Shown one piece after another: positions 24,236-40,426 of a stretch of DNA of 64,000 nt. This DNA comes from Fimbriimonas sp. Lineage in GTDB: Bacteria; Armatimonadota; Fimbriimonadia; Fimbriimonadales; Fimbriimonadaceae. Under the pieces are notes generated by a model. That model made no database searches. It was not told the DNA's origin and saw only the letters and a list, made by a program, of their open reading frames with translations. The first letter of the stretch is position 1, and each line of letters opens with the position of its first letter. The stretch is from assembly GCA_031292555.1 (NCBI GenBank), contig JARLGV010000085.1:1-64000 (forward strand), written 5' to 3'. The translations under genes were made by a program, and so were the position numbers.

Positions 24236-25582
24236 ATGCCCATCTGGCTAACCGGGCGTAAGGAAGAATTGACTCAGGTCTCCCGAGCGTTGCGTCCGGG
24301 GCGTATCGTAACGCTAGTCGGTCCAGGAGGAGTGGGTAAGAGCACTCTGGCTCGAGCGGTAGTCGAAAGGTTTCGCAGGGCGGGGTTTTGGGCGGACCTA
24401 GCGCTCGTCGACGATCTGGATCTGTTGAGATCGACAATCCTATATGCGTTCAACGCGAGTTCGCTAGGCGATGCCGCGACTCGAGTCGGTCAGTCTCGAT
24501 CCCTTCTGGTCCTCGATAATTGCGATGGCGCGGACCCTGACTGGCACAAGGCGATTCAAGAAATTCGACTGACCTTGCCCAGGATCAGCATTCTGGCTAC
24601 GAGCAGGAGACGGTTGGGATTCCGAGAGGAACTGACTATTCCAGTCAATCCCCTGGCCACCGAATCCACGCCGGGACTCCGGGTGGCTCCCGCAACCGAT
24701 ATGCTTGCTTTGCGCGTTAGCTCTGCACGACGGGGGCTGTGGCAGCCCAATGCCGCGGATATGGAACGGCTAGCAAGACTCGCCCGCATAACGGATGGCT
24801 TGCCTTTGGCCCTGGAGCTGATAGCAGCCCGATCTCAGACACTAACTCTCTCAGAACTTGAGTCGGTCTTTGCGAACATAGAACCTGGATCCACGGAGAC
24901 GTCATTTGGAGCATTGAGCGGTGTCTTTCGACGATCGCTAGTGTATTTGCCCACAAACGAACGGGACGCACTCTTCCGGCTGACCGCCTTCCCGGATTCC
25001 TGGGATGAAGACGCCGCCCGTGCACTAGACGTCTCTCGCTCGGAGTTGGATGGGCTAGTCGAGGCATCGCTTGTCGTGGCGTTGTTTGAAGACGATACGA
25101 TTCGATACCGCCTACTTGACCCAATTCGTGAAGCGATTCAGGCCGAACTCTCCGATAGTAGCTCCGTGGAGGAATGGCGGTCTCGACTGGCACTTCACTT
25201 CCTCGAACGTGTACAGCCTCAAGGAGTGAGGCCATTTAGAGAGTCGCCCACCGACCCCTTCAAGATCAGAAAGGACTTGGCGAGCTACATTCAGGCACAA
25301 CGCTGGTTTGGCCGGCGACAGATGACAGAGCAGTGCTCTATCATTACCATCGGACTGGCGATTACACATCTCCTTCAGGAACCGCGAAGTCAGTCGTATG
25401 AATGGATTCGTGCACAGCTGACTCAATCAGAAGCCGATCATGCGGCATTTGGACATGTCCTGTGTTGTGGCGCCCTTGCCGCGATGAACATGGGTGAGTT
25501 TGATGAGGCTAAGGCTTACCTATACCGCGCAACGACAATTGCCGAGACTCAGAAGAGCCGTTTCTATGGTCCCGCTGCATGA
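24236..25582 (+). CDS. STAND (NB-ARC-like) ATPase with TPR start, N-terminal part of a split regulator
   Basis: The 448-residue protein has a P-loop GPGGVGKST (residues 29-37), Walker B LLVLDNCD (Asp94), a sensor-like ILATSRRRLG (about 120-129) and the GLPLALELIAARS signature (about 190-202) of MalT/AfsR-type STAND NTPases. A winged-helix region follows, and from about 405 a first TPR (GALAAMNMGEFDEAKAYLYR). No DNA-binding domain is present. The reading frame ends in the middle of a TPR, and its TGA overlaps the next start (ATGA). Sequence similarity continues without a break in the next gene when the frame is shifted by one base. Such proteins are ATP-dependent molecular switches triggered by a ligand. 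Confidence 0.85.
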   Translation: MPIWLTGRKEELTQVSRALRPGRIVTLVGPGGVGKSTLARAVVERFRRAGFWADLALVDDLDLLRSTILYAFNASSLGDAATRVGQSRSLLVLDNCDGADPDWHKAIQEIRLTLPRISILATSRRRLGFREELTIPVNPLATESTPGLRVAPATDMLALRVSSARRGLWQPNAADMERLARLARITDGLPLALELIAARSQTLTLSELESVFANIEPGSTETSFGALSGVFRRSLVYLPTNERDALFRLTAFPDSWDEDAARALDVSRSELDGLVEASLVVALFEDDTIRYRLLDPIREAIQAELSDSSSVEEWRSRLALHFLERVQPQGVRPFRESPTDPFKIRKDLASYIQAQRWFGRRQMTEQCSIITIGLAITHLLQEPRSQSYEWIRAQLTQSEADHAAFGHVLCCGALAAMNMGEFDEAKAYLYRATTIAETQKSRFYGPAA

Positions 25583-26778
25583 CGTTGCTGGGCCACCTAA
25601 GCGCCTATAGTCGTCAACCGATGGAACGCGAAGAGCGCCTCATCGAGGCCATCCGCTTCATGCGTGAGACCGGAAGCTGGCGCGAGCCTTCGGTTCTGTT
25701 GGGCACTGGCTACGCTTCCCGGGCCAGAGGAGACCTTTCTGGCGCAAGAAAGTGGTTTCAATCTGGAATTGATTTCGATTCCAGAGGTAACGTTTCAGCT
25801 GGCGCGAACCACTTGGCGCTTGCGGAAGTGGCCTTTCTCGAAGGGTCCTACCTAGAGAGCGCAAGGCTGTGGCGAGACATGTTTGTCGTTCATTCAGACC
25901 TAAGGTTTTGGAACGAAGCGACCTATTGCGCTATGGGCTTGGCCGCCTGTGCAACTCGGCTTGGTTACCCCGAAATCGGTCTTCGGTTTGAAGGGTTTGC
26001 GAAGTCTCTGTCCAAGCGCATGCTCGTTCCACCTAGCCCGTTTGAATCGGAATGGACGCCCGCGTATTTAGAGGCGAGATTGGTCGTGGGTTCGGATGCA
26101 GAACGGCTGGTTCGTGCCGGGGCGTCCGTGTCGCATGATACGGCCATCGGAGAAATTGCGGGATGGCAGCCCAAAACCGAATCTTCCCGCATTGCGAGAC
26201 GCCTGCGTAGCTTTCCGCTTATGGCGCCCATTGAAAGAACGGAAATGCAAGCGGTTGTTTCGGCATGCAAGATTGAGAGATTCCCGCCAGGAAGTCTAGT
26301 TGTTGCCTCCGGGCAGATCAGCGATGGATCGCTTCGCTTGGTGTTGGGTGGGCAGGTAGCACGTCGAACTGCGCAGGGCGATGTTCCTATTGGAGATAAA
26401 GAACCCATTCTGGATGGCGTATTCCTTAAGGGCTCGTCACTCTACGACACCCTTGTCGCTTCGGAATCGGCAGAAGTCGCTCTCGTCGATGCCGAGACCA
26501 TTGAGGCTGTGGCTGGCCTGCGCCGCCTGGTGGTCAGCGCTTTGGCGGTTCGCGCCCAACATAGCGCCGGATCACTTGGAAAGTTGGACGATCGCTTGCT
26601 TCTGTTCGCAAGGTCACATGTTGCAGGCGGCGTCGGAACATTTCGCGTTCCTCTCACCCAAAACGAACTTGCGACTCGGTTCGGTGTAACACGGGAAAGC
26701 GTCGGCCGCGCCTTGTCCCGGCTCGAAGGCAAGGGCCTAATAATCCGACACAAGAACTCTCGATGGACGGTTAGGTAG
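25579..26778 (+). CDS. TPR / Crp-Fnr family regulator, C-terminal part of a split regulator
   Basis: Residues 1 to about 200 are TPR-like helical repeats (TGYASRARGDLSGARKWFQS, LAEVAFLEGSYLESARLWRD). Residues about 208-330 form a cNMP-binding-like jelly roll (FPLMAPIERTEMQAVVSACK, PPGSLVVASGQ), followed by the long dimerisation helix. The C-terminus is an HTH_Crp domain (VPLTQNELATRFGVTRESVG, then RALSRLEGKGLI). The phosphate-binding cassette of true cAMP binders is not evident, so another ligand or none is likely. Because the first residues complete a TPR begun in the previous gene, the two products probably work as one switch: STAND sensor, TPR ligand sensor, Crp output. Confidence 0.85.
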   Translation: MTLLGHLSAYSRQPMEREERLIEAIRFMRETGSWREPSVLLGTGYASRARGDLSGARKWFQSGIDFDSRGNVSAGANHLALAEVAFLEGSYLESARLWRDMFVVHSDLRFWNEATYCAMGLAACATRLGYPEIGLRFEGFAKSLSKRMLVPPSPFESEWTPAYLEARLVVGSDAERLVRAGASVSHDTAIGEIAGWQPKTESSRIARRLRSFPLMAPIERTEMQAVVSACKIERFPPGSLVVASGQISDGSLRLVLGGQVARRTAQGDVPIGDKEPILDGVFLKGSSLYDTLVASESAEVALVDAETIEAVAGLRRLVVSALAVRAQHSAGSLGKLDDRLLLFARSHVAGGVGTFRVPLTQNELATRFGVTRESVGRALSRLEGKGLIIRHKNSRWTVR

Positions 26779-27079
26779 GCATCTCGGCGAACGGGCGATT
26801 AGGGAAGTCGTATGGCGCCACAAGGTACGTCGTGACCGAGTGGCTTGGAGCCCGGTCAGCCGCTCGGGTTCGCCGCAATCGGGCCAGCCCTCGTGCAAGG
26901 CTCCTAGGTGGTACAGAAACGAGAGCCTTACATTTACAGGGTGCAAGGAGCGGGCGAAGTGGCAAAGAGCCTCTGCCCGCAAACTTGCTTCGTTCGGCGC
27001 GCAAAGATCGTCCATTATCGCAAGAAGGCGAGATTCTCTTCAGAATATGCTCGCGTTGCCAGGGCCTGAGTGTCGGCCC
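26779..27079. other. Gap without genes between the Crp gene and the ribosomal cluster
   Basis: No convincing ORF. The only clear structure is a hairpin, GCGGGC (26950-26955) with GCCCGC (26975-26980), enclosing GGC/GCC. It begins with GGAGCGGGCGAAGTG, the same 15 bases as the hairpin after the giant gene. It may end the STAND/Crp transcript. Confidence 0.5.
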
Positions 27080-27109
27080 TTGACATGCGGTTGACTTCAA
27101 AGTCATAAT
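27080..27109 (+). promoter_or_regulatory. Main promoter of the ribosomal protein cluster
   Basis: TTGACA (27080-27085), 18-base spacer, CATAAT (27104-27109), the best consensus promoter in the window. Transcription would start near 27116 and give a leader of about 200 bases before rpsL. Confidence 0.7.
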
Positions 27110-27130
27110 TCCTCACTGTCTGGAGATCCT

Positions 27131-27268
27131 GTGTCTTCAGTCACTCATCACGTCAGGAGGCGCAGAACCGGGTTCGTCGGGACTACGAGACAACGCAAAG
27201 AGCGAAGGCTGTCGGACCAGTGTGCCCCTTGCCGCGTGAGTTGGCAGAGGGGTTTTTTGTTGCTTTAG
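27131..27268 (+). CDS. Candidate arginine-rich leader peptide upstream of rpsL
   Basis: A 45-codon frame starts at GTG 27131 with GGAG five bases upstream, about 15 bases after the predicted transcription start. It contains HHVRRRRTG near the N-terminus and runs through the attenuator hairpin to a TAG just beyond. No homology is recognised. A run of arginine codons before a terminator fits a leader peptide, but chance is possible. Confidence 0.25.
   Translation: MSSVTHHVRRRRTGFVGTTRQRKERRLSDQCAPCRVSWQRGFLLL
27225..27258 (+). terminator. Attenuator in the rpsL leader
   Basis: CCCCTTGCC (27225-27233) pairs with GGCAGAGGGG (27243-27252) with one bulged base, followed directly by TTTTTT (27253-27258). 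It lies about 60 bases before the rpsL start and downstream of the cluster's promoter. Full termination here would shut off the whole cluster, so regulated read-through is expected. Confidence 0.7.
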
Positions 27269-27318
27269 GGCAGCCCCACAGGCAGAAGTAAGGAAATACG
27301 AGATGAATAGAGGTGTGA

Positions 27319-27726
27319 ATGCCGACCGTTAACCAACTGGTACGCAAGGGCCGCAGTGCCCCCAAGGTGAAGTCTAAGTCGCCCGCGCTAAAGAGCAATC
27401 CGTTCAAGCGCGGTGTCTGCACGGTTGTGCGGACCATGACGCCGAAGAAGCCGAACTCGGCCCTTCGGAAGACCGCCCGTGTGCGTCTGACCAACGGTAT
27501 CGAGGTGTCGGCATATATCCCCGGTGAGGGGCACAACCTTCAGGAGCACTCGGTGGTTCTCGTTCGAGGCGGCCGCGTGAAGGATCTGCCGGGCGTACGC
27601 TATCACATCGTACGCGGCACGCAGCAGACCGCCGGCACCGCCAAGCGGATGCAAGGCCGGTCGAAGTATGGGACCAAGCGGCCGAAGCCGGGTCAGCCCG
27701 CCGCCGCAGCCGGTAAGAGAAAGTAG
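27319..27726 (+). CDS. rpsL: Small ribosomal subunit protein S12
   Basis: Decoding-centre protein. The conserved segments [13 protein letters not shown] (with the streptomycin-contact lysine), [20 protein letters not shown] and [12 protein letters not shown] are intact. The 135 residues are about ten more than usual, from a short basic, alanine-rich tail ([11 protein letters not shown]). First gene of the cluster; its leader contains an intrinsic terminator. Confidence 0.97.
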
Positions 27727-27753
27727 CGCTTCACGCGAATTTAGGGAAAACTA

Positions 27754-28224
27754 ATGCCAAGAAAAGGACCAGCAGTTAAGAGAATAACCGTTCCCGATCC
27801 GATTTACGGGTCGGAACTCATGACTCGGTTCATCAACCGAATGATGGTTGATGGAAAGAAAGTTACGGCCGAGAAGATTTTCTACGGCGCCATGGCGATC
27901 TGCGAGCAGAAGTCAGGCGTTCCCGCGTTGGAGGTGTTTGAAAAGGCCCTCACCAACGTGATGCCCGCCGTGGAAGTTCGCCCTCGCCGTGTCGGTGGCC
28001 AGACCTATCAGGTACCGATGGAGGTACGACCCGACCGTAGGCGCACATTGGCGTTGCGCTGGATGATCGGGGCCGCCCGAAAGAGGTCAGGGAAGACGAT
28101 GGTCGATCGTCTTGCCTCTGAAATCCTCGACGCGTTTAATGGAACAGGAAGCACGATTAAGAAGCGCGAGGACACGCACCGTATGGCGGAGGCCAATAAA
28201 GCCTTCGCCCACTATCGTTTTTAA
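27754..28224 (+). CDS. rpsG: Small ribosomal subunit protein S7
   Basis: Primary binder of the 16S rRNA 3' major domain, 156 residues, standard length. Clear segments are [17 protein letters not shown]-like [39 protein letters not shown] and the C-terminal [15 protein letters not shown]. Lies 27 bases after rpsL and 12 before fusA, the usual str order. Confidence 0.97.
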
Positions 28225-28236
28225 CAAGGACTGAAG

Positions 28237-30366
28237 ATGCCCCGTAGCCACGCCCTAGAACTGGTCAGAAATATCGGAATCGCCGCTCACATCGACGCGG
28301 GTAAGACCACTACAACTGAGCGAATCCTGTATTACACAGGTAAGTCCCACAAAATGGGAGAAGTGCATGATGGCGCAGCTACGATGGACTGGATGGAGCA
28401 GGAGCAGGAGCGAGGGATCACGATCACCTCGGCCGCCACGAGCTGTTTCTGGAAGGGAAGCAAGAAGGACAAGCCCGAGCACAAGATCAATATCATCGAC
28501 ACGCCCGGTCACGTCGACTTCACCGTAGAGGTGGAGCGATCGCTCCGCGTCCTCGACGGCGCCGTTTGCGTGCTCTGCGCGGTCGGCGGCGTCCAGCCGC
28601 AGACTGAGACGGTCTGGCGTCAGATGAACAAGTACGGCGTGCCCCGAATCATCTATGTAAATAAGATGGATCGCTTGGGCGCCGACTTCTTCTCGGTGCT
28701 TGCCCGTGTAAAGGAGCGACTTGGCGCCAATGCAGCGCCCATCCAGCTTCCGATCGGTGCGGAGTCGCTGTACTCCGGCTACGTCGATCTGATCCGGATG
28801 AAGGCCACGATCTACATCTCCGATGACGGAAAGGTCAGCGAAGAGCGAGAGATCCCGGCCGACATGGTGGATCTTGCCGCCGAATATCGTGAGAAGATGA
28901 TCGAGTCCATTTCGGACTTCGACGATTCGATCATGGAGCGGTTCTTGGACGGCGAAGAGATTTCCGAGCAGGAAATCCAGGCGGCTCTGCGAAAGGGCAC
29001 CTTGGCCAACAAGATCGTACCGATGTTCTCCGGCTCGTCGTTCAAGAACAAGGGCGTCCAAGCGATGATCGACGCGGTGGTGGACTACTTGCCGTCGCCG
29101 TTGGATGTCGCCGTCGTGAAGGGTGTGCACCCGCGAACGGAAGAGGTCGTCGAGCGAAGCGCTAACGACAAGGAGCCGTTCGCCGCGCTTGCGTTCAAGA
29201 TCATGTCCGACAAGTACGTGGGTCGTCTGACGTTCCTGCGGCTTTACTCCGGTGTTCTCAAGAAGGGAACGTCGGTTGCGGTGACGTATCGAGATCCGCA
29301 GACGAACGAGTTCCGGGTGAGGCACGAGCGAATCGGCCGTATCCTCGAAATGCACGCGAATAGCCGAAACGACATTGACGAGGTTTACGCCGGCGAGATC
29401 GTTGGCGTGATCGGTCTGGGCGACGTGAATACCGGGCACACAATCTGCGACGAGAACAACCTGATTGCGCTGGAAAGCATCAAATTCCCAGAGCCGGTCA
29501 TCCAGATTGCGATCGAGCCGAAGTCGAAGGCGGACCAAGAGAAGCTTGGTTCTTCGCTTCAGCGCTTGGCGCAAGAGGATCCGACGTTCCGTGTGTTTAC
29601 TGACCAAGAGTCGGGACAGACGATTATCTCGGGAATGGGCGAGCTTCACCTCGAGATCATCGTGGACCGTCTCAATCGAGAATTCGGTGTCCAAGCGAAC
29701 CAAGGTAAGCCTCAGGTCGCCTACCGCGAAACGGTGCGAATCAAGGCGAAGGGCGAAGGCCGCTTCATCAGGCAGACCGGCGGTTCCGGCCAATACGGCC
29801 ACTGCTGGATCGAGATGGAGCCGCTGCCACCCGGATCCGGCTTCGTGTTCGATAACAAGGTTGTCGGCGGTTCAATTCCGAAGGAATACGTGCCGGCGAT
29901 CGAAAAGGGCGTGCGCGAAGGGTTGCTGGCAGGCGTGCTTGCCGGATATCCGGTCGTCGATATCAAGGTGTCGCTGCTGGAAGGTTCGTACCACGAAGTG
30001 GACTCGAACGAAAACGCTTTCAAGCAGGCTGGAATTCTCGCTTTCAAAGAGGCGATGAAGAAGGCGAATCCTGTGCTCAAAGAGCCGATTATGCATGTCG
30101 AGGTCACCACGCCGGAACAGAACGTTGGCGACGTCATTGGAGACATGAACGGGCGGCGGGGCAGGATTGAAGGAATGGAGAACGCAATGGGTGGGGTGAC
30201 AATTGTCAACGCACACGTTCCGCTTTCCGAAATGTTTGGGTATGTTACGACGTTGCGGTCGCTAACACAGGGCAGAGCGCAACCGAATGTAACGCCTTCT
30301 CACTACGAGGAGGTCCCGAATAGCATCGCAGCCGAGATCACGGCTAAGGCGCAAAGCGGCCGCTAA
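28237..30366 (+). CDS. fusA: Elongation factor G
   Basis: GTPase that drives translocation, 709 residues with the five normal domains. G1 is AHIDAGKTT (17-25), switch [12 protein letters not shown]3 DTPGH (about 88-92) and G4 NKMD (about 142-145). Domain IV shows [15 protein letters not shown] and the tip region [16 protein letters not shown]. It starts 12 bases after rpsG and is followed by tuf. Confidence 0.97.
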
Positions 30367-30403
30367 AGGCGTGGCCGGATTAGATTAGGTAGGAGCAATA
30401 AAA

Positions 30404-31612
30404 ATGGCAAGAGCTAAATTCGAGAGAAAGAAGCCGCACGTCAATATCGGCACCATCGGCCATGTTGACCACGGCAAGACGACGCTTACGGCTGCGATTA
30501 CGGGCGCCCTGGCATTGAAGGGCCTGTCGAAGAAGGTTTCCTATGCGGAAATCGACTCGGCGCCGGAAGAGAAGGCACGCGGTATCACGATCAACATTTC
30601 GCACCAGGAGTATGAGACGGCTACGCGCCACTATGCGCACGTCGACTGTCCTGGCCACGCGGACTTTATCAAGAACATGATCACCGGCGCCGCCCAGATG
30701 GACGGTGCGATCCTGGTCGTCTCCGCGACGGACGGTCCGATGCCCCAGACGCGAGAGCACATCCTGCTCGCCCGTCAGGTCGGCGTCCCCTACATCGTGG
30801 TGTACATCAACAAGGTTGACCTCGTTGACGACCCCGAGCTGATCGAACTCGTCGAGATGGAGTGCCGCGACTTGCTGAGCAAGTACGGTTTCCCGGGCGA
30901 CGACACTCCGATCGTCAAGGGCTCCGCGACTCAGGCTTTGGCCGCCGTCGAGAAGGGCCTTCCGATCGAAAGCGAGGAGTTCAAGTCGGTTTTCGAGTTG
31001 ATGGATGCGGTCGACAGCTTTATCCCGACTCCGACTCGCGACAAGGACAAGCCGTTCTTGATGGCCGTTGAAGACGTCTTCACAATCACCGGCCGCGGCA
31101 CGGTTGCCACCGGCCGTGTCGAGCGCGGTCAGCTGAAGTCGATGGAGGAAGTTGAGATCGTTGGTCTCAGCGCCGCTCCTCGAAAGACGGTCTGCACCGG
31201 TATCGAGATGTTCCGCAAGACCCTCGACTACTGTGAAGCCGGCGACAACGTCGGTCTCCTTCTTCGAGGCGTCGACCGAACGTCGATCGAGCGCGGAATG
31301 GTCTGCTGCAAAGTCGGCTCGATCAAGCCGCACACCAAGTTCAAGGCTGAGGTTTACGTCTTGTCGAAAGACGAGGGCGGACGCCACACCCCATTCGTTT
31401 CTGGCTACCGCCCGCAGTTCTTCTTCCGCACGACCGACGTGACCGGAACGCTGTATCTGCCGGATGGCGTCGAGATGGTTATGCCTGGTGACAACATCAC
31501 CATGACTATCGAACTGATCGCCAACGTCGCCATGGAGCAGGGTTCGAAATTTGCTATTCGTGAAGGCGGCCGAACGGTCGGCGCCGGAACGATCACGGAG
31601 ATCGAATTCTAA
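30404..31612 (+). CDS. tuf: Elongation factor Tu
   Basis: GTPase that delivers aminoacyl-tRNA, 402 residues. G1 GHVDHGKT (19-26), switch [15 protein letters not shown] (commonly NTAHVEYET), G3 DCPGH (about 81-85) followed by [20 protein letters not shown], and G4 NKVD (about 136-139). Domain 2 has [13 protein letters not shown] and domain 3 [13 protein letters not shown] and the ending [12 protein letters not shown]. The ATG is preceded by AGGAGC. A stable hairpin follows the stop. It is the only tuf copy in the window. Confidence 0.97.
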
Positions 31613-31620
31613 GATAAATC

Positions 31621-31648
31621 GAAGCCTCCGCCTTCAGGCGGGGGCTTC
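31621..31648 (+). terminator. Hairpin between tuf and rpsJ, partial terminator
   Basis: GAAGCCTCCGCC (31621-31632) and GGCGGGGGCTTC (31637-31648) form a 12-bp stem with one G-U pair and a TTCA loop. Only TT follows, so termination is probably partial. It separates the str-type genes from the S10-type genes. Confidence 0.6.
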
Positions 31649-31663
31649 TTAATGAAAGCAACT

Positions 31664-31975
31664 ATGGCAGGAATAAAAGTCAGAATCAGGCTTCGCGCTT
31701 TCGATCACCGGATCATCGACCAATCGGCCGAGAAGATCACGGACACCGCAAAGCGAACCGGAGCGAGAGTGGCCGGCCCGACTCCGTTACCGACGAACAT
31801 TCGCCGGTTCTGCGTGATCCGCGGTCCGCACATCGACAAGGAGTCCATGGAGCATTTCGAGCTTCGGACCCACAACCGGCTCATCGATATTCTTGAGCCG
31901 ACCAACAAAACGATTGATGCGCTTATGAGGCTTGACCTCCCAAGCGGCGTCGACATCGAAATCAAGAGCGCGTAG
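31664..31975 (+). CDS. rpsJ: Small ribosomal subunit protein S10
   Basis: 30S head protein, also NusE in antitermination complexes. ATG 31664 gives 103 residues ([20 protein letters not shown]), matching the family; the in-frame ATG at 31652 lies against the upstream hairpin and would add four unneeded residues. Conserved segments: [29 protein letters not shown] and the C-terminal [10 protein letters not shown]. Confidence 0.95.
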
Positions 31976-32024
31976 GCGTAGATTTCGGAAGGATCAAATA
32001 ACTGGCGCTTCAAAGGCGAGGATC

Positions 32025-32096
32025 GTGCGTCCCGACGGCAAAGAGGGCAACGCGCAAAACGACCCAAACACAGTGGAAGCGAAGAAGGTGGAATAA
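32025..32096 (+). CDS. Possible 23-codon small ORF before rplC
   Basis: GTG 32025 is preceded by GGCGAGGA and encodes a polar peptide ([20 protein letters not shown]..). Its TAA is immediately followed by the rplC ATG. It could be a coupling peptide or simply an open stretch in the 121-base gap after rpsJ; no homology is recognised. Confidence 0.2.
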
Positions 32097-32723
32097 ATGT
32101 TGCCAGGAATTCTAGGCACGAAAATTGGGATGACCCACGTCTTTACGGACGAGGGGAAAATGGTGCCGGTTACGGTCGTTCAGGCCGGACCCGTGTACGT
32201 AACACAACTGAAGTCTGAGGAAACGGACGGCTATACCGCCGTCCAGGTCGGCTATGGCGAGGCGAAGGAGAGCAAACTCACCTTCCCGAAATACGGCCAT
32301 TTGAAGAAAGCCGGCCTGAGTAAGAACCTCAAGACCCTGAAAGAGTTTCGAGTGGAGTCGACGGATGGTTTGGCCCTTGGCCAAGAGATCACCATCGACA
32401 TCTTTGCAGAGGGCGAAAAGGTCACGGTTACCGGCAACAGCAAGGGCCGGGGTTTTGCCGGCGGCGTCAAGCGCTACCACTTCAAAGGACAGCACATGAC
32501 ACACGGTTACATGACCCACCGTCGGCCGCTGTCAAACGGCGCAACTGGCCCGCAGAGGGTTTTTAAAGGCAAGCGTGGACCTGGTCACATGGGTGACGAG
32601 ACGGTTACGCAGAAAGGTCTCAAGGTCGTCAAGGTGGATGCCGAGCGCAACCTCATCCTGATCGACGGTAGCGTGCCTGGTCCAAACGGCGCCCAAGTCA
32701 TTATCTCGAAGGTGGCGAAGTAA
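32097..32723 (+). CDS. rplC: Large ribosomal subunit protein L3
   Basis: Early 50S assembly protein, 208 residues. It starts [16 protein letters not shown] and shows the central loop [15 protein letters not shown], then [13 protein letters not shown] and [24 protein letters not shown] lies before the ATG. Three bases separate it from rplD. Confidence 0.96.
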
Positions 32724-32726
32724 ACC

Positions 32727-33398
32727 ATGGCAGAACTACAGATTCACGGAAAGGACGGCAAGAGCGTCGGCACGCACAGTTTGAGTGCGGCGATCTCTGG
32801 CGCCAAGGTCAACGCCGTTACCGCTCATCGCGCAGTCGTCTCGGAAGAGGCCAACAAGCGACAGGGCACCCAGTCGGCCCTCACTCGTTCGGAAGTGCGA
32901 GGCGGCGGCCGGAAGCCGTATAAGCAGAAGAAGACCGGTAATGCCCGACAGGGAACTGTCAGCGCGCCGCACTATACCCATGGTGGTATGGCGATGGCGG
33001 TCAAGCCTCGCGACTACGAAAAGAAGATCAACAAGAAGGAGCGGAGAGCCGCTCTGCTTGGGGCCTTCGCAGCACAGATCGCAGCCGGCAACGTCACGAT
33101 CGTCGACTCGATCGTGTTTGCCGAGCCAAAGACGAAGGATGCCGTCGCGCTCATCAGTGCGCTGGGATTTGCCAATCAGCGACGTCTGCTCATCGTGTTG
33201 CCAGTATATGACGCGGTCACGTACAAGTGCTTCCGGAACCTGCCGAACGTAACGGTGCGCACCGCGCCGTCGTCGTCTGCCGGCGGAGCCGAAGCGGCCA
33301 AGACCGCCGTCTTCTCGACTCGCGATCTCCTGCTCGCTCAGAAGATCGTGGTCGCACAGGACGCACTCACCAAGATCGAGGAGGTCTGGGCTAAGTGA
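32727..33398 (+). CDS. rplD: Large ribosomal subunit protein L4
   Basis: Tunnel-lining protein, 223 residues. The extended loop shows GTQSALTRSEVRGGGRKPYK followed by QKKTGNARQG, and the globular part LLIVLPVYDAVTYKCFRNLP. In E. coli the L4 protein represses its own operon; no similar leader was recognised here. The TGA stop overlaps the rplW start (GTGA). Confidence 0.95.
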   Translation: MAELQIHGKDGKSVGTHSLSAAISGAKVNAVTAHRAVVSEEANKRQGTQSALTRSEVRGGGRKPYKQKKTGNARQGTVSAPHYTHGGMAMAVKPRDYEKKINKKERRAALLGAFAAQIAAGNVTIVDSIVFAEPKTKDAVALISALGFANQRRLLIVLPVYDAVTYKCFRNLPNVTVRTAPSSSAGGAEAAKTAVFSTRDLLLAQKIVVAQDALTKIEEVWAK

Positions 33399-33736
33399 AA
33401 AACCCATACGATATCATCGTCCGTCCGCACATTACGGAAAAGGCAGTCGCCCTTTCCTATGGCGACCCGCGGATTCGGGATGAGGAACTTCTCGCCCGAA
33501 AATACACCTTTGAAGTGCGCACCGATGCAAACAAGATCGAGATCAAGGCTGCAATCGAGGCGATCTACAACGAGGGCAAGAAGAAGGATCAGGCCATCAC
33601 CGTCGAATCAGTCCGGACCATCAAGATTCTGGGCAAGAAGCGCCGACGTGGTCGCAGCGTGGGATACGAGCCAAACCGCAAGAAGGCTGTAATCACACTC
33701 GGAAAGGGCCAGATGCTCGAGGATTACGGAGTCTAA
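33395..33736 (+). CDS. rplW: Large ribosomal subunit protein L23
   Basis: Tunnel-exit protein that docks trigger factor and SRP, 113 residues. It starts at GTG ([20 protein letters not shown]) within the GTGA overlap with rplD. The family core [20 protein letters not shown] and [20 protein letters not shown] is present. Ten to fifteen residues are added between the first helix and the core ([16 protein letters not shown]). Confidence 0.93.
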
Positions 33737-33737
33737 G

Positions 33738-34571
33738 ATGCCAACACGACAATATAAACCGACTTCGCCGGGTCGACGCCACATGATTGGCTCGACCTAT
33801 GCCGAAGTAACGAAGGGCAAGCCGGAAAAGACGCTTACCTCGGCCAAGCCGCATACCGGCGGCCGAAACAGCAGCGGCCGTTTGACCTCCAAGAATCGAG
33901 GCGGCGGTAACAAAACCCAGTATCGCGTGGTCGACTTCAAGCGAGACAAGGACACAGTTCGGGCCAAAGTGGTCGCGATCGAATACGATCCGAATCGAAC
34001 TTGCCGAATCGCCCTCGTTCACTACCTGGACGGCGAGAAGAGATATATCCTCGCGCCCAAAGGTCTTTCGGTCGGAACGCTGATCGAAAGCGGGGAAGGC
34101 GCCGACATTCTCCCGGGCAACGCGCTTCCGCTCAAGAACATCCCGCTTGGTACGCTCGTGCATAACATCGAGCTGCAGCCAAAGAAGGGAGGCCAGATGG
34201 TTCGTTCGGCCGGCGCCTCCGCGCAGGTCATGGCAAAGGAAGGGAACTACGTGACCCTCCGACTGCCCAGCGGTGAAATGCGCATGGTGCACAACACCTG
34301 CCGCGCAACCATCGGCGAGGTCGGCAACTCCGAGCACGAGAACGAGTCGATCGGAAAGGCCGGTAAGAATCGGGGTCTTGGAAAGAAGCCGCACGTTCGC
34401 GGTGTCGTCATGAGCCCGCGCGACCACCCACACGGTGGTGGTGAAGCGAAGTCCCCCGTTGGACGCAAGAAAGGCCCAGTCGACCGATGGGGCAATAAGG
34501 CTCTCGGTCAGAAGACCCGGCACAACAAGCGCACGGAGAAATACATCGTTCGTCGGAGGGAGTCCAAGTAG
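33738..34571 (+). CDS. rplB: Large ribosomal subunit protein L2
   Basis: Peptidyl-transferase-centre protein, 277 residues. [40 protein letters not shown] and the catalytic-centre loop [20 protein letters not shown] with the conserved histidine are intact. A 171-base structured gap separates it from rpsS, whereas the two genes are usually close together. Confidence 0.97.
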
Positions 34572-34577
34572 GCAAAG

Positions 34578-34674
34578 GCTTCTCGGTTGGAATTGGCCGA
34601 GGAGCATAGCTCTACACGAAGGATCTATGACCGGGAAAGGGTGCGATCTGCTTACCGAACCCCGACCGTAGATC
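34578..34674 (+). other. Structured spacer between rplB and rpsS
   Basis: GCTTCTCGG (34578-34586) pairs with CCGAGGAGC (34597-34605). GATCTATG (34622-34629) pairs with CGTAGATC (34667-34674), enclosing GGGT/ACCC (34639-34642 with 34659-34662). No ORF is present in the 171-base gap (34572-34742). It may be a binding site for an r-protein or a processing site; no known leader family was recognised. Confidence 0.4.
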
Positions 34675-34742
34675 GACTTCCCAATTAGCACGTGCACTGC
34701 CCACTCGGGTGAAACCGGGTCCAGGGGCACCACTGGAGAAAT

Positions 34743-35030
34743 ATGGCAAGAAGCTTAAAGAAAGGATTTTTTGTCGACGACCATCTCATGAAGAAGGTTA
34801 TCGATCTGAACAGGAAGGGCGAAAAGCGGCTGATCAAGACTTGGAGCCGCCGATCGACCATCACGCCCGACATGGTCGGACACACGTTCGCCGTACACGA
34901 CGGCCGCAAGCATGTGCCGGTTTTCATCACTGAGAACATGATCGGTCACAAGCTCGGAGAGTTTGCTCCGACACGGACGTTCCGTGGCCACGCCGGTGGC
35001 CTCGCCGAGAGGGGGACCAAGCTAAGGTAG
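34743..35030 (+). CDS. rpsS: Small ribosomal subunit protein S19
   Basis: 30S head protein, 95 residues, standard length. [39 protein letters not shown] and [18 protein letters not shown] are all conserved. Its ribosome-binding site is CTGGAG. Confidence 0.96.
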
Positions 35031-35097
35031 AGCCCTGACGGGTAAAATAAGCGGCTTTGCGCGAATTTGGCGCGGTAACCGCTTGAGGCAACAGACG

Positions 35098-35685
35098 ATG
35101 GAAGTAAGAGCAATCGCAAAATATGTAAGAGTGCAGCCGCGCAAAGTGCGGATTATCGCGGACGAGGTCCGCGGCAAGTCCGCCGTACACACGGCGAGTC
35201 TGCTGCGCTATCACACCTCAAAGAGCGCCCAGGCGCTTCACCAGGTGTTGATTTCGGCCATGGCAAACGCCCAGGAGAATCACAACCTGTCCCCCGATCA
35301 GTTGAAAATCGCCGCCATCACGGTGGACGAGGGACCGCGACTCAAGCGGATGCAGGCAAGAGCTATGGGCCGAGGCAATCGGATCGTCAAGAAGACCAGC
35401 CACATCACGGTGGTCGTTGAGGATTACGAAGCGCCCAAAGCCGTAAAGCCGCATGGCAGCAAGCCCAAGCCGCGGCCGACGTTCGCTGCTCCTACCAAGG
35501 GCAAGAAGAAGAGCGCTGCTCAGCCGGTCGCTGCCGATGATCCGGTAGTCGAGGCGACTGATGTCGTCGCTGCGCCGGTAGAGGCGTCCGAACCGATTTC
35601 GACGACGGAAACGGCCGAACAGGCCCCTACGACTGAGTCCACCGAAGGCGGAACCGCCCCAACGGACGAGAAAGGAGCGGAATAA
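35098..35685 (+). CDS. rplV: Large ribosomal subunit protein L22 with long C-terminal tail
   Basis: Residues 1 to about 112 are a normal L22: VRAIAKYVRVQPRKVRIIAD, tunnel hairpin and GRGNRIVKKTSHITVVVED. Residues 113-195 form an extra low-complexity tail, first basic (KPHGSKPKPRPT..KGKKKSAA), then acidic and rich in A, V, E, T. ATG 35098 is preceded by TTGAGG; an in-frame TTG at 35083 is less likely. A short GCGC-rich hairpin (about 35051-35081) lies upstream. Confidence 0.93.
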   Translation: MEVRAIAKYVRVQPRKVRIIADEVRGKSAVHTASLLRYHTSKSAQALHQVLISAMANAQENHNLSPDQLKIAAITVDEGPRLKRMQARAMGRGNRIVKKTSHITVVVEDYEAPKAVKPHGSKPKPRPTFAAPTKGKKKSAAQPVAADDPVVEATDVVAAPVEASEPISTTETAEQAPTTESTEGGTAPTDEKGAE

Positions 35686-35687
35686 CT

Positions 35688-36470
35688 TTGGGTCAGAAGA
35701 TTCATCCAGTAGGCTTTCGCGTTGGGGTCATTCGTGGCTTCGACAGCCAGTGGTATTACGGAAAGAAGGGCTATGGCAATGCCCTCCTGCAGGATCACGA
35801 GATTCGGCAGTTCATCAAGAGGCGCACCGGTCTTGGCAACGTCAGCCGAGTCGAGATCGAGCGCGCTGCCAACCGCGTCAAGGTGACCATCTTCACCGCG
35901 CGCCCCGGTGCGATCATCGGACGCGGCGGTAAGGGCATCGACGAGTTGACCGACACGCTGAACCGGATGGTTCGCGCCAAGGACAAGACGATGGTCGTTC
36001 AGGTCAACGTCACCGAGGTTCGCCAGCCGGAGTTGGACGCGCAGCTCGTCGCAGAGAACGTGTGCCAGCAGCTCGAAAAGCGCATCAGCCATCGCCGGGC
36101 CATGCGGCAAGCGATGACCCGCGTGATGCGAATGAACGGACGTGGGATTAAGATCCAGGTCTCGGGACGGTTGGGCGGTTCGGAAATCGCTCGCCGCGAG
36201 GGAGACAAGATCGGCAAGATCCCGCTCCACACTATTCGCGCCGACATCGACTACGGCCAGGCAACCGCTCACACGGTCTATGGCTCGGTCGGATGCAAGG
36301 TGTGGATCTACAAGGGAGAGGTTCTTCCCGAGCGACGGTTGCGAGATATCGAGCCCCAGCCGCAGCCAGCCCGCCGACCTCGTCCTCCGCGAGAGGACTC
36401 GTCGCAGCAGGCATTCGCTGCCACTCAGGCTCCGGCGCCGGTCGCACCCGTTGAAGGAGGTCAAGCCTAA
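35688..36470 (+). CDS. rpsC: Small ribosomal subunit protein S3 with C-terminal tail
   Basis: Protein at the mRNA entry site, 260 residues. It starts at TTG with AAAGGAGCGG upstream: [20 protein letters not shown]. The KH motif is [20 protein letters not shown], followed by [20 protein letters not shown] and [20 protein letters not shown]. The last 40 residues are a proline-, glutamine- and alanine-rich tail. Its TAA overlaps the rplP ATG by one base. Confidence 0.94.
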
Positions 36471-36961
36471 TGTTGATGCCCAAGAGAGTCAAGCATCGAA
36501 AGATGCACCGTGGAAGGATGAAGGGCCACGCGACCCAGGGTAACCGGATCTCTTTCGGTGAATTCGGAATCGTAGCCCAAGAGCCGGCGTGGATTACCTC
36601 CCGCCAGATCGAAGCCGCTCGTATCGCCATGACCCGCCACATCAAACGTGGTGGAAAAGTGTGGATTCGAATCTTCCCGGACAAGTCGTACACTAAGAAG
36701 CCTCTCGAAACCCGTATGGGTAAGGGTAAGGCTCCAGTCGAAGGCTGGGTCGCAGTCATAAAGCCGGGCCGCGTTCTGTTCGAGATGGACGGAGTCCCGG
36801 TGGAAGTGGCCAAAGAGGCCATGAGGCTCGCGATTTTCAAACTGCCGATCCGCTGCAAGTTCGTCACCAAGGCCGAACTGGAGGCTGCTGCCGCCATCGC
36901 CGTGGTTGAGACAGGAGACGATGCGGTCGTCGCAGAAGCGCCGGAGAGCGTTCAGGAATAG
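36470..36961 (+). CDS. rplP: Large ribosomal subunit protein L16 with C-terminal tail
   Basis: Protein near the A-site, 163 residues against about 140 usually. [40 protein letters not shown] and [20 protein letters not shown] are typical. An extra acidic tail of about 22 residues ends in [14 protein letters not shown] lies nine bases before ATG 36470; ATG 36476 would match the family start better. Confidence 0.94.
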
Positions 36962-36970
36962 CATAACAAG

Positions 36971-37177
36971 ATGAAGGACACGAAAATATCAGAACTGCGA
37001 GAGAAGAGCGTTCCTGAGCTGGAGGCATTGGTTCTCGAAGAGAGGGCAAACCTCTACAAGGCTCGAAGGGACCTCGTTTTTCGACGGATGACCGACACGG
37101 CCAGCGTCAAGGTGCGGCGACACAACATCGCCCGCATGCTTACGCTGATTGCCGAGAAGAAGCGAGGTAACGCGTAA
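36971..37177 (+). CDS. rpmC: Large ribosomal subunit protein L29
   Basis: Helical-hairpin protein at the tunnel exit, 68 residues. [20 protein letters not shown] and the [18 protein letters not shown] second helix match the family. The TAA overlaps the rpsQ ATG (TAATG). Confidence 0.93.
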
Positions 37178-37461
37178 TGGCAGATACAAACAAGGAAGCT
37201 GTTGTTGAGGAGTCTCGCGGCAATCGAAAGGTCCGTCAAGGAATCGTCGTCTCCAACAAGATGGAGAAGACGGTCGTCGTGAAAATTGAGCGCCGCGTTC
37301 AGCACCCGATCTACGGAAAAGTCGTGTTGCGCACGAAGAAGTTCAAGGCCCACGACATCATCGGATGCGACGAAGGAGACCGAGTCGAGATTATGGAGAC
37401 CCGCCCGATCAGCAGAGACAAGTGCTGGCGAGTCACCCAGATCCTTGAAAAGGTGAAGTAA
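37177..37461 (+). CDS. rpsQ: Small ribosomal subunit protein S17
   Basis: OB-fold 16S-binding protein, 94 residues. [40 protein letters not shown] and [18 protein letters not shown] are typical. About ten extra acidic residues precede the family start. It overlaps rpmC by one base. Confidence 0.95.
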
Positions 37462-37470
37462 CTCGTTTAG

Positions 37471-37525
37471 GGCAGCCGGTTGGCTGCCAACGTGTTTGAG
37501 GCTGAGTTCGCTCCGCCTCAAACGC
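37471..37525 (+). other. Tandem hairpins between rpsQ and rplN, one with a UUCG tetraloop
   Basis: Hairpin 1: GGCAGCC (37471-37477), GGTT loop, GGCTGCC (37482-37488). Hairpin 2: GTTTGAGGC (37494-37502) with GCCTCAAAC (37515-37523), continued inside by GAG-TTCG-CTC (37504-37513), giving a UUCG tetraloop after one mismatch. Neither is followed by a T-run. They fill the 123-base gap before rplN. Confidence 0.6.
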
Positions 37526-37584
37526 ATGTCAAGCCTCCTCCGGAATGCCGGAATGGCCTCTGAAACAGTACAAGGAATAAGACA

Positions 37585-37956
37585 ATGATTCAGCAATTTA
37601 CAAGGCTCAAGGTGGCCGACAATTCGGGAGCGCGCGAAGTGATGTGTATTCGCGTCCTGAAAGGATCTCAGCCCCGGTACGGCGGCATCGGCGACGTCAT
37701 CGTGGCTGCCGTGAAAGTGGCAACCCCCAACATGCCGGTCAAGAAGGGCGATGTGGTAAAGGCGGTCATCGTGCGGACGAAGCACCCGGTCCGGCGCGTC
37801 GATGGCTCGACCCTGCGATTCGACGATAACGCATGCGTCGTCATCAACCCGTCCAACCTCGAGCCCCGAGGTACGCGCATCTTTGGGCCGGTGGCTCGCG
37901 AATTGCGCGACAAGAACTTCATGAAGATCGTATCGCTTGCACCGGAGGCCCTTTAA
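37585..37956 (+). CDS. rplN: Large ribosomal subunit protein L14
   Basis: Subunit-interface protein, 123 residues, standard. [40 protein letters not shown] and [20 protein letters not shown] are conserved. CAAGGAA lies before the ATG. The TAA overlaps the rplX ATG. Confidence 0.97.
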
Positions 37957-38366
37957 TGCCAACAAAAGCAGAACTTAAGCAAAAGGCCACGCACATCAAA
38001 CTGAAGATCCGTAAGTTTGACAAGGTGGTCATCATTTCCGGGAAGGACAAGGGCGAAATCGGATTTGTCGCCGCCGTCTCGCCCAAAGAGCAGAAGGTCC
38101 TCGTACTCAAAGAGAACGAGGAGAATCCGGAGCAGCCGCTGCCGCTCAACGCTGCGATCAAGCATCGCAAAGCGAAGACTCAAGGGCAGCGATCGGTCCG
38201 GATGAAGATCCCGGTGCCCATTCACATCAGCAATGTGATGGTTTTGGATCCGGCAACCAATCAGCCGACCCGTGTCGGACGGCGAGAGGAAGACGGCAAA
38301 CTCGTGCGCTACGCCAAGAAGAGCGGCACCAAACTCGTCGATGTTCCTGTGATCGAGCCCAAGTAA
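37956..38366 (+). CDS. rplX: Large ribosomal subunit protein L24
   Basis: Assembly-initiator protein, 136 residues, about 25-30 longer than usual. The KOW motif is in FDKVVIISGKDKGEIGFVAA; PLPLNAAIKHRKAKTQGQRS and IHISNVMVLDPATNQPTRVG follow. The insertion lies between KOW and the HISNV strand. ATG 37956 overlaps the rplN stop by one base; the frame is open further upstream but inside rplN. Its stop codon lies in the loop of a 14-bp hairpin. Confidence 0.92.
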   Translation: MPTKAELKQKATHIKLKIRKFDKVVIISGKDKGEIGFVAAVSPKEQKVLVLKENEENPEQPLPLNAAIKHRKAKTQGQRSVRMKIPVPIHISNVMVLDPATNQPTRVGRREEDGKLVRYAKKSGTKLVDVPVIEPK

Positions 38367-38403
38367 GGGTTCGATCACAGCGTCGCCTGGTCAGAAATCA
38401 GGC
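38347..38403 (+). other. Hairpins spanning the rplX stop codon
   Basis: CTGTGATCGAGCCC (38347-38360) pairs with GGGTTCGATCACAG (38367-38380) over 14 bp with one G-U pair; the 6-base loop AAGTAA contains the rplX stop codon. A smaller hairpin, GCCTG/CAGGC (38385-38389 with 38399-38403), follows before rplE. No T-run is present, so a processing or coupling role is more likely than termination. Confidence 0.6.
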
Positions 38404-38419
38404 AAAGTAAGGAAGACTA

Positions 38420-39016
38420 ATGGCAAGAAAAGAAAAAGAAAAAGTCGTGGCCGGTCCGATCACCCTGCCCAAGCCACGGCTGAAGGCAAAGTATCAGAGC
38501 GACGTCCTACCAAAGCTCACCGAGCAGTTTAAGTACAAAACGGTGATGCAGGCTCCCAAGTTGGACAAGATCGTCATCAACATGGGGACCGGCAGCAAGG
38601 AAAAGAGCGGCGACAAGAACCTGGAGAATTCCATCCGGGACATGACACTGATCTCGGGCCAGAAGCCGATCATCACCAAGGCGAAGAAGGCTATTTCGAA
38701 CTTCAAACTCCGTGAAGGCATGGAGATCGGTTGCAAGGTCACCCTCCGCGGCGATCGCATGTACCACTTCTTCGATAAGCTGGCAACCGTCGTGCTCCCC
38801 CGTATCCGAGACTTTCAGGGCCTTTCGCCGAAGTCTTTCGATGGACGCGGCAACTACGCCCTCGGTTTGAAAGAGCAGTTGGTCTTCCCCGAGATCCCGT
38901 ATGACACGTTCGACCGCATCCGCGGTATGGACATCGTGATCTGCACCACCGCCAAGACCGACGAAGAAGCCCGCGTCTTCCTGAAGGCCATGGGCCTTCC
39001 CCTCCGAGAGAAGTAA
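38420..39016 (+). CDS. rplE: Large ribosomal subunit protein L5
   Basis: 5S rRNA-binding protein, 198 residues. [20 protein letters not shown], the [20 protein letters not shown] strand, [20 protein letters not shown] and [20 protein letters not shown] are typical. A basic N-terminal extension ([12 protein letters not shown]..) is slightly longer than usual. It is the last ribosomal gene here: rpsN/rpsZ, rpsH, rplF and the rest of the spc operon do not follow. Confidence 0.96.
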
Positions 39017-39030
39017 AACCACCCTCCCCC

Positions 39031-39567
39031 AAGGAGCGCGGACTTCAGTCCGCCCAAGTGCCCCGGGCTTCAGCCCGGGGTTCCTTTCTTAAGCAAGAGC
39101 CTCCACTGGACAAGGCGCCGTGCCCTGGAAGAAACCTCCTGCCTCGGGCAACGAACTCCTGCCCCCGGCGATGGCCCCTTGCCTATGGAGATGATCCGAC
39201 GTTCGGAGAGTGCATCAACTTTCCAGCACGACTTCGCTCCGTAGCGATCCACCAGGCCCATCGAAACGAATCCGTCTTCTATGAAGTAGCTGAGACATCT
39301 GCGATCCAGGTTGCTGTCAGCGGATCGCTACTTTCTCCAACCGACTCGCCCATTTCCACCTTGGCTACAGGTTCGATAGCGTGCAGGTTCCCCCCAAATA
39401 TGACGCAACCCACCGTTGTAGAGTCCACCTTGTACGGTGCTCGCCAGCCTAGCTAAGGAGGCGTCGTCGGCCATTGCCTGCCAGACCGTGCTTGAGGCTC
39501 AATGCGGGCTTACACCGAGCCGGACTGAAGTCCTGGATACTTGGGCGGACTGAAATCCGCGCTCCTT
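39031..39567. repeat. REP-bounded inverted repeat, MITE-like, 537 bp
   Basis: A 29-bp terminal inverted repeat (39031-39059 and 39539-39567) matches at 28 of 29 positions. Each end also carries two short palindromes with a CTTCAG or CTGAAG core (left 39038-39053 and 39061-39080; right 39522-39533 and 39545-39560). The interior (39081-39510) has no convincing gene; short open frames on both strands look decayed. It separates the ribosomal cluster from the ABC-2 permease gene. Confidence 0.6.
39061..39080 (+). terminator. Terminator of the ribosomal cluster
   Basis: CCCCGGGCT-TC-AGCCCGGGG is a perfect 9-bp stem with a 2-base centre, followed by TTCCTTTCTT. Directly upstream lies another perfect palindrome, GCGGACT-TC-AGTCCGC (39038-39053). 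Both look like dispersed REP-type repeats also serving as terminators. Confidence 0.65.
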
Positions 39568-39612
39568 GGAGGGGTTGCGAAGTTCCGACGCCTATTTGGT
39601 GGCGGGATGGGC

Positions 39613-39618
39613 AATAAT
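39613..39618 (+). promoter_or_regulatory. Leaderless-type -10 element (AATAAT) for the ABC-2 permease gene
   Basis: AATAAT lies seven bases before the ATG at 39626; no Shine-Dalgarno sequence is present. Confidence 0.45.
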
Positions 39619-39625
39619 GCATCCC

Positions 39626-40426
39626 ATGCGGTGGACGTTGCGGAAATGGAGGGCAGTGTTCTCCATTTACTTCCAGGACGGAATCGCGTACCGGGCTAGC
39701 GGGCTCATCTGGGTGACTACAGACCTGGCTACCGCGGTTACAATGCCGCTCGTTTGGGCTGCCGCAAGCAAGAGCGGACCGATCGGCGGGTTCACGTCGA
39801 GCGACTTCATCCTTTACTACCTCTGTATGCTGTTTCTCGGCAGCTTCGTGATGAGCCACATCATGTGGGAACTCGCGATGGAGATTAAGGAAGGGCAGTT
39901 CTCGACGATGCTTCTGCGGCCGATGAGCTTCTACCAACTCAACTTTTTCCGGAATCTCTCCTGGCGCGTGATCCGGCCCGTCCTATTCGCGCCGTTCTTC
40001 GTCGCCCTACTCCTCGCCTATCACAGCTACCTCAAACACGTCGACATCCATCTCGGTTGGCAGTTTTGGGCATCCGTGATCATGGGGCACCTGGTCAGCT
40101 TCTCTTTCGTGATGATGATGTCGATGCTCGCCCTGTTCACACAGGAGGTCACTTCGATCTTCGAGCTGTATTACATTCCGATGCTGTTCTTGTCTGGTCA
40201 GCTCTTTCCCATCGCCATGCTGCCAGATTGGGCGGCCAAGCTCGCCAAGATGTTCCCTTTTTACTTTATGACCGGCGCCCCGACCGAGATCCTTATAGGA
40301 CGAATCGGCGGCGGCGCCGTCTATCAGGTCCTTGGAATTCAGGTCATGTGGGTCACCGTCTGCTACGGCGTTTCGCGCATCCTCTGGAGAGTAGGTCTCA
40401 GGCATTACACCGGCGTAGGCATGTAG
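39626..40426 (+). CDS. ABC-2 type transporter permease
   Basis: A membrane protein of 266 residues with six hydrophobic segments, of the DUF990/ABC2_membrane_6-like group. Recognisable parts are FQDGIAYRASGLIWVTTDL near the N-terminus, WELAMEIKEGQFSTMLLRPM (the coupling helix before the second membrane segment) and LFLSGQLFPIAMLPDWAAKL. Such permeases normally pair with a second permease and an ATPase; neither is adjacent. ATG 39626 was preferred to 39617 because of the -10 spacing; an open frame continues upstream into the repeat. Confidence 0.8.
   Translation: MRWTLRKWRAVFSIYFQDGIAYRASGLIWVTTDLATAVTMPLVWAAASKSGPIGGFTSSDFILYYLCMLFLGSFVMSHIMWELAMEIKEGQFSTMLLRPMSFYQLNFFRNLSWRVIRPVLFAPFFVALLLAYHSYLKHVDIHLGWQFWASVIMGHLVSFSFVMMMSMLALFTQEVTSIFELYYIPMLFLSGQLFPIAMLPDWAAKLAKMFPFYFMTGAPTEILIGRIGGGAVYQVLGIQVMWVTVCYGVSRILWRVGLRHYTGVGM

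Follow-up and report, generated by a model that had tools for sequence, protein, structure and literature searches.

Attenuators in front of rpsL have been described before. Naville and Gautheret (2010) reported a multiform rpsL-leader that combined terminators with alternative antiterminators in several genera (PMC2965389). Such rpsL-leader attenuators were found in Listeria, Xanthomonas, Pseudomonas and Rickettsia, and S7 was suspected as their ligand (PMC2965389). According to the authors, their own rpsL-leader forms shared no common feature, and we found no mention of Armatimonadetes or Fimbriimonas in the text of that article. In Bacillus subtilis, control by competing antiterminator and terminator structures is established for the L10 and L20 leaders (PMC10931766). 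The S7 protein of E. coli represses the str operon translationally through a site between rpsL and rpsG (PMC10931766). Outside the well-studied phyla, little is known about the control of ribosomal-protein operons.

We analysed a window of 64,000 nucleotides from the 6.46-Mb genome of Fimbriimonas sp. (Armatimonadota), in which a leader preceded a ribosomal cluster of 18 genes. Similar to the rpsL-leader attenuators, this leader had an intrinsic terminator between the promoter and rpsL, as well as an alternative antiterminator predicted to exclude the terminator; the likeness to the forms of Naville and Gautheret was one of architecture. The rplJL (L10-L12) and infC (L20) leaders of B. subtilis were likewise long and placed competing structures before ribosomal genes. 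However, they belonged to other genes and had known protein ligands, and, unlike in them, an anti-antiterminator was not found here because our candidate failed a permutation test (see below). The E. coli S7 system controlled the same genes as those of the present cluster. In that case, the control was translational and used the rpsL-rpsG site, whereas the control predicted here would be transcriptional and would act ahead of rpsL. The gap between rpsL and rpsG was 27 bases in the window, leaving little space there for a site of the E. coli type. On our best reading of the compared sequences, this leader belonged to the known kind of rpsL attenuator and was a form specific to its clade. More precisely, the leader ahead of the str-S10-spc cluster was likely (probability about 0.8) to act in cis as a transcription attenuator that chose between a terminator and an antiterminator. 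It would represent a defined and testable switch ahead of 18 genes, with exact bases that could be mutated, in a phylum that has hardly been studied, and a case where one gene kept its attenuation while the switch itself changed in sequence.

The promoter, the elements of the leader and the cluster were all on the forward strand. The cluster occupied positions 27319-39016 and had the gene order rpsL, rpsG, fusA, tuf, rpsJ, rplC, rplD, rplW, rplB, rpsS, rplV, rpsC, rplP, rpmC, rpsQ, rplN, rplX, rplE. These were open reading frames, of which rpsL was confirmed by Pfam, while the 17 other names were read from the translations. On the 3' side of rplE, at the end of the cluster, we observed an inverted repeat of 53 bases (39026-39078 and 39520-39572) with 87% complementarity and a separation of 441 bases. 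Upstream of the leader, the region 24236-26778 contained two overlapping frames, a STAND/AAA-type ATPase followed by a protein with a C-terminal Crp-like helix-turn-helix; they looked like either a single regulator that a frameshift had split or a pair of coupled genes.

The cluster was preceded by the promoter TTGACA-18-CATAAT at 27080-27109, matching the consensus at 11 of 12 positions. A near-consensus promoter had been proposed at this place by a sequence-only reading of the window, and the site was indeed conserved across the leaders of the class. Although it was the single promoter-like site identified by a scan of 27000-39700, shuffled sequence yielded 3.7 such sites. We then read the sequence upstream of rpsL across the class, in roughly 100 genomes. 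In nearly all of them, the promoter ahead of rpsL had a spacer of 17 or 18 bases (mostly 18), and it was separated from rpsL by a leader of approximately 160-300 bases.

The terminator, a hairpin followed by a TTTTTT tract, was located at 27224-27258, with the arms GCCCCTTGCC and GGCAGAGGGG and a free energy of -16.7 kcal/mol in the energy scan. On the window sequence alone, a simple terminator scan produced one site versus 1.6 expected, which was within chance. Across the class, however, 84 of the 94 leaders included in this count had a strong intrinsic terminator between the promoter and rpsL; when the same leaders were shuffled, three such sets contained 3, 8 and 6. A clear terminator was not found in some lineages among the class leaders read. 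Thus, both the promoter and the terminator stood out beyond chance because of their conservation across the class, and the terminator with its T run could be retained from the sequence-only reading.

The competing structure was absent from that earlier description and was found in the present analysis. The strand CACGUCAGGAGGCGCA at 27149-27164 could pair with UGUGCCCCUUGCCGCGUG at 27221-27238, the latter being common to the 5' arm and the loop of the terminator, so that the two structures would exclude each other. When the leader of the window was cut ahead of the terminator 3' arm, its predicted fold consisted of the antiterminator and of P1, a 5' hairpin (27117-27143) near the presumed transcription start that belonged to the minimum-energy fold. 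The fold predicted for the complete leader contained the terminator. Similarly, among the 66 leaders that could be anchored on a GGNGG core, the anchor was paired with the terminator arm in 50 of the cut leaders, and most of the terminator was retained in 43 of the complete ones. For the window, the fold energies of neither the cut nor the complete leader were better than those of shuffles, and therefore the case for an attenuator rested on comparison.

For the comparison, each left strand was paired with its own or with a swapped partner. With one leader per genus of the class (n=23), the cognate partners had a mean of -20.4 kcal/mol versus -16.9 kcal/mol for the swapped ones. The cognate mean was not reached in any of 5000 permutations for these genera, nor in any of 5000 when 11 other members of the phylum were added; these and the following counts keep the relatedness among leaders and hence are not strict probabilities. 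Masking the GGNGG core left a signal in the flanks alone (24/5000), while two control segments from the same leaders gave 545/5000 and 2128/5000. The signal was weaker for the 11 phylum members on their own (232/5000). An earlier version of the pairing test, also with one leader per genus, had a z of -6.9. Additionally, GC, CG, AU and UA pairs were all observed at flanking positions of the antiterminator. As judged from these pairings of partners, relatives preserve the predicted antiterminator pairing through compensatory change.

For the P1 region (the 5' 46 bases), the mean z of the class was -1.81, and that of the window itself was +0.46. The fold of the complete window leader gave us the idea that P1 could pair with the AGGAGG strand as an anti-antiterminator. 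This candidate was rejected because cognate partners had no advantage in the genus set, which comprised 16 leaders (L013 of a sister genus among them) and in which 1391 of 2000 permutations were equally good. Such an advantage was also not found in the genera set or in the phylum set.

Taken together, the comparison showed that the promoter, the terminator and the antiterminator were all conserved, the last of these being predicted to exclude the terminator by using its 5' arm. The attenuator that the sequence-only reading had placed ahead of the ribosomal cluster was supported, with alternative structures in front of all 18 genes. According to the proposed mechanism, P1 would form first after RNA polymerase leaves the promoter. 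CACGUCAGGAGGCGCA would then pair with UGUGCCCCUUGCCGCGUG once the latter was transcribed, and polymerase would read on into rpsL. If the AGGAGG strand was occupied or removed, the terminator would form instead and transcription would end near 27258. By analogy with known systems, the signal was probably feedback by a surplus product of the operon or another measure of ribosome supply, with S7 of E. coli as the precedent for an operon product. Protein-controlled read-through of the leader, as suggested earlier, was among the possible forms of control.

A rival explanation would be that the hairpin was a mere terminator that shielded the cluster against transcription arriving from upstream and had no regulatory role. 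Insulating terminators are common, and on the window sequence alone the hairpin was not beyond chance. However, a strong promoter lay ahead of it in one genome after another, and its 5' arm coevolved with an upstream strand, which made insulation very unlikely as the full explanation. Another possibility was attenuation through translation of an arginine-rich peptide of 45 codons, as proposed from the sequence of the window. The corresponding frame did exist: it ran from a GTG at 27131 to a stop at 27268, had GGAG five bases upstream at a usable distance, and contained the arginine run VRRRR, which is how the antiterminator strand GTCAGGAGGCGC reads in translation. Its product had no Pfam match. 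In L003, the closest relative, whose RpsL was 98% identical, the position of the GTG start was occupied by GCG. No start codon with a ribosome-binding site was found in the same place and frame in the other members of the genus that were read, and hence no conserved small frame of this kind was seen in the genus of the window. Moreover, the GTG was inside the P1 hairpin, roughly 15 bases from where the transcript presumably begins. Since it was missing from every other congener read and was found in the source genome only, we judged this frame to be a chance one, and the proposed leader peptide was not borne out. Control through its translation appeared highly improbable, and the leader peptide is not needed for the switch in the source genome.

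A point in favor of a peptide came from a sister family, f2. In this family, 13 genomes (L044, L046-L051, L134, L140, L143, L144, L146 and L147) had an arginine-rich frame that followed GGAGG, opened with ATG and was 27-29 codons long, at a position equivalent to that in the window, with the consensus MNRT..ERGFARGxR..KRRRKRRCE. Two other members, L045 and L132, were without it. Among the nine most similar genomes, pN/pS was 0.58 in this frame versus 1.4 and 1.6 in the other two. The column test counted 9, 9 and 16 variable columns and gave a P of 0.02 or 0.065 depending on the count, so its signal was only suggestive. The spacing from GGAGG to ATG was long, the ATG was located in a GGUUCAU..AUGAACC hairpin, and hairpins in this stretch could imitate part of the coding signal. 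The f2 frame thus had a modest, suggestive coding signal. Its conservation meant that the leader-peptide idea was not absurd for the wider group, but the frame began elsewhere than the GTG frame of the window.

The left strand of the antiterminator contained AGGAGG (27155-27160), a Shine-Dalgarno-like motif lacking a start codon. It could be a decoy: surplus free 30S subunits would bind to it and block the antiterminator, and synthesis would stop. The 3' end of the 16S rRNA from the source genome, GGATCACCTCCTTAA, was complementary to AGGAGG, and most genus leaders retained the motif, mostly lacking a start codon at a usable distance. Its middle A was unpaired in 23 of 37 antiterminators, even though a G at this position could pair with the facing C. 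An unpaired A in a start-less AGGAGG is compatible with binding of either 30S subunits or a protein, and the bulge might serve a protein instead. Furthermore, some phylum members had AGGGGGC in place of the motif, and several genera without AGGAGG still kept the terminator and the antiterminator, which indicated that the motif was not the sole way of reading the switch. For these reasons, we considered the decoy unlikely. An extension of this idea was that a phylum-wide RNA with a start-less Shine-Dalgarno sequence in its antiterminator gauged free 30S subunits and set the transcription of the cluster, and that this spot became the start region of an arginine-rich leader peptide in one of the sister families. 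We regarded it as speculative and also rather improbable. Attenuation by terminator and antiterminator, whichever signal it would respond to, remained our preferred reading.

The distribution of the leader was followed by sampling 20 genomes from elsewhere in the phylum. Most of them had the same order of elements, namely the promoter, (A)AGGAGGC or AGGGGGC, and a terminator, often of the type GCCCCUCCUGUGUGUGAG. This order was not clearly seen in L192, L193 and L203. In the leaders of these other classes (L191-L210), we also noticed a recurring (C)AGGUU at the apparent transcript start and terminator loops that were often GUGUGUG. Within our class, three genomes of one genus (L156, L165 and L166 of g40) had lost the leader, and their rpsL began about 20 bases past the -10 box; L163 of the same genus retained it. 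Since the leader was lost in a few genomes and the terminator was unclear in some lineages, the leader was dispensable.

A covariance-model search identified one copy in the source genome, ahead of rpsL, and across 40 relatives no additional site was convincing; the model was weak, as only 6 base pairs were kept owing to a poor MAFFT alignment. The weak extra hits that we inspected in relatives were within the fusA coding sequence, at an ordinary terminator, or in stretches without any apparent link to ribosomal genes. No leader family of Rfam matched the window at the gathering score, and a search of ten relatives at an E-value of 1 returned nothing beyond tRNAs and some hits to unrelated families that stayed below the threshold. 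Separately, in four Bacillales genomes (L073, L080, L084 and L100), rpsL was preceded at a distance of about 70 bases by hairpins that resembled terminators, had GUUUUUGC arms and were similar to each other.
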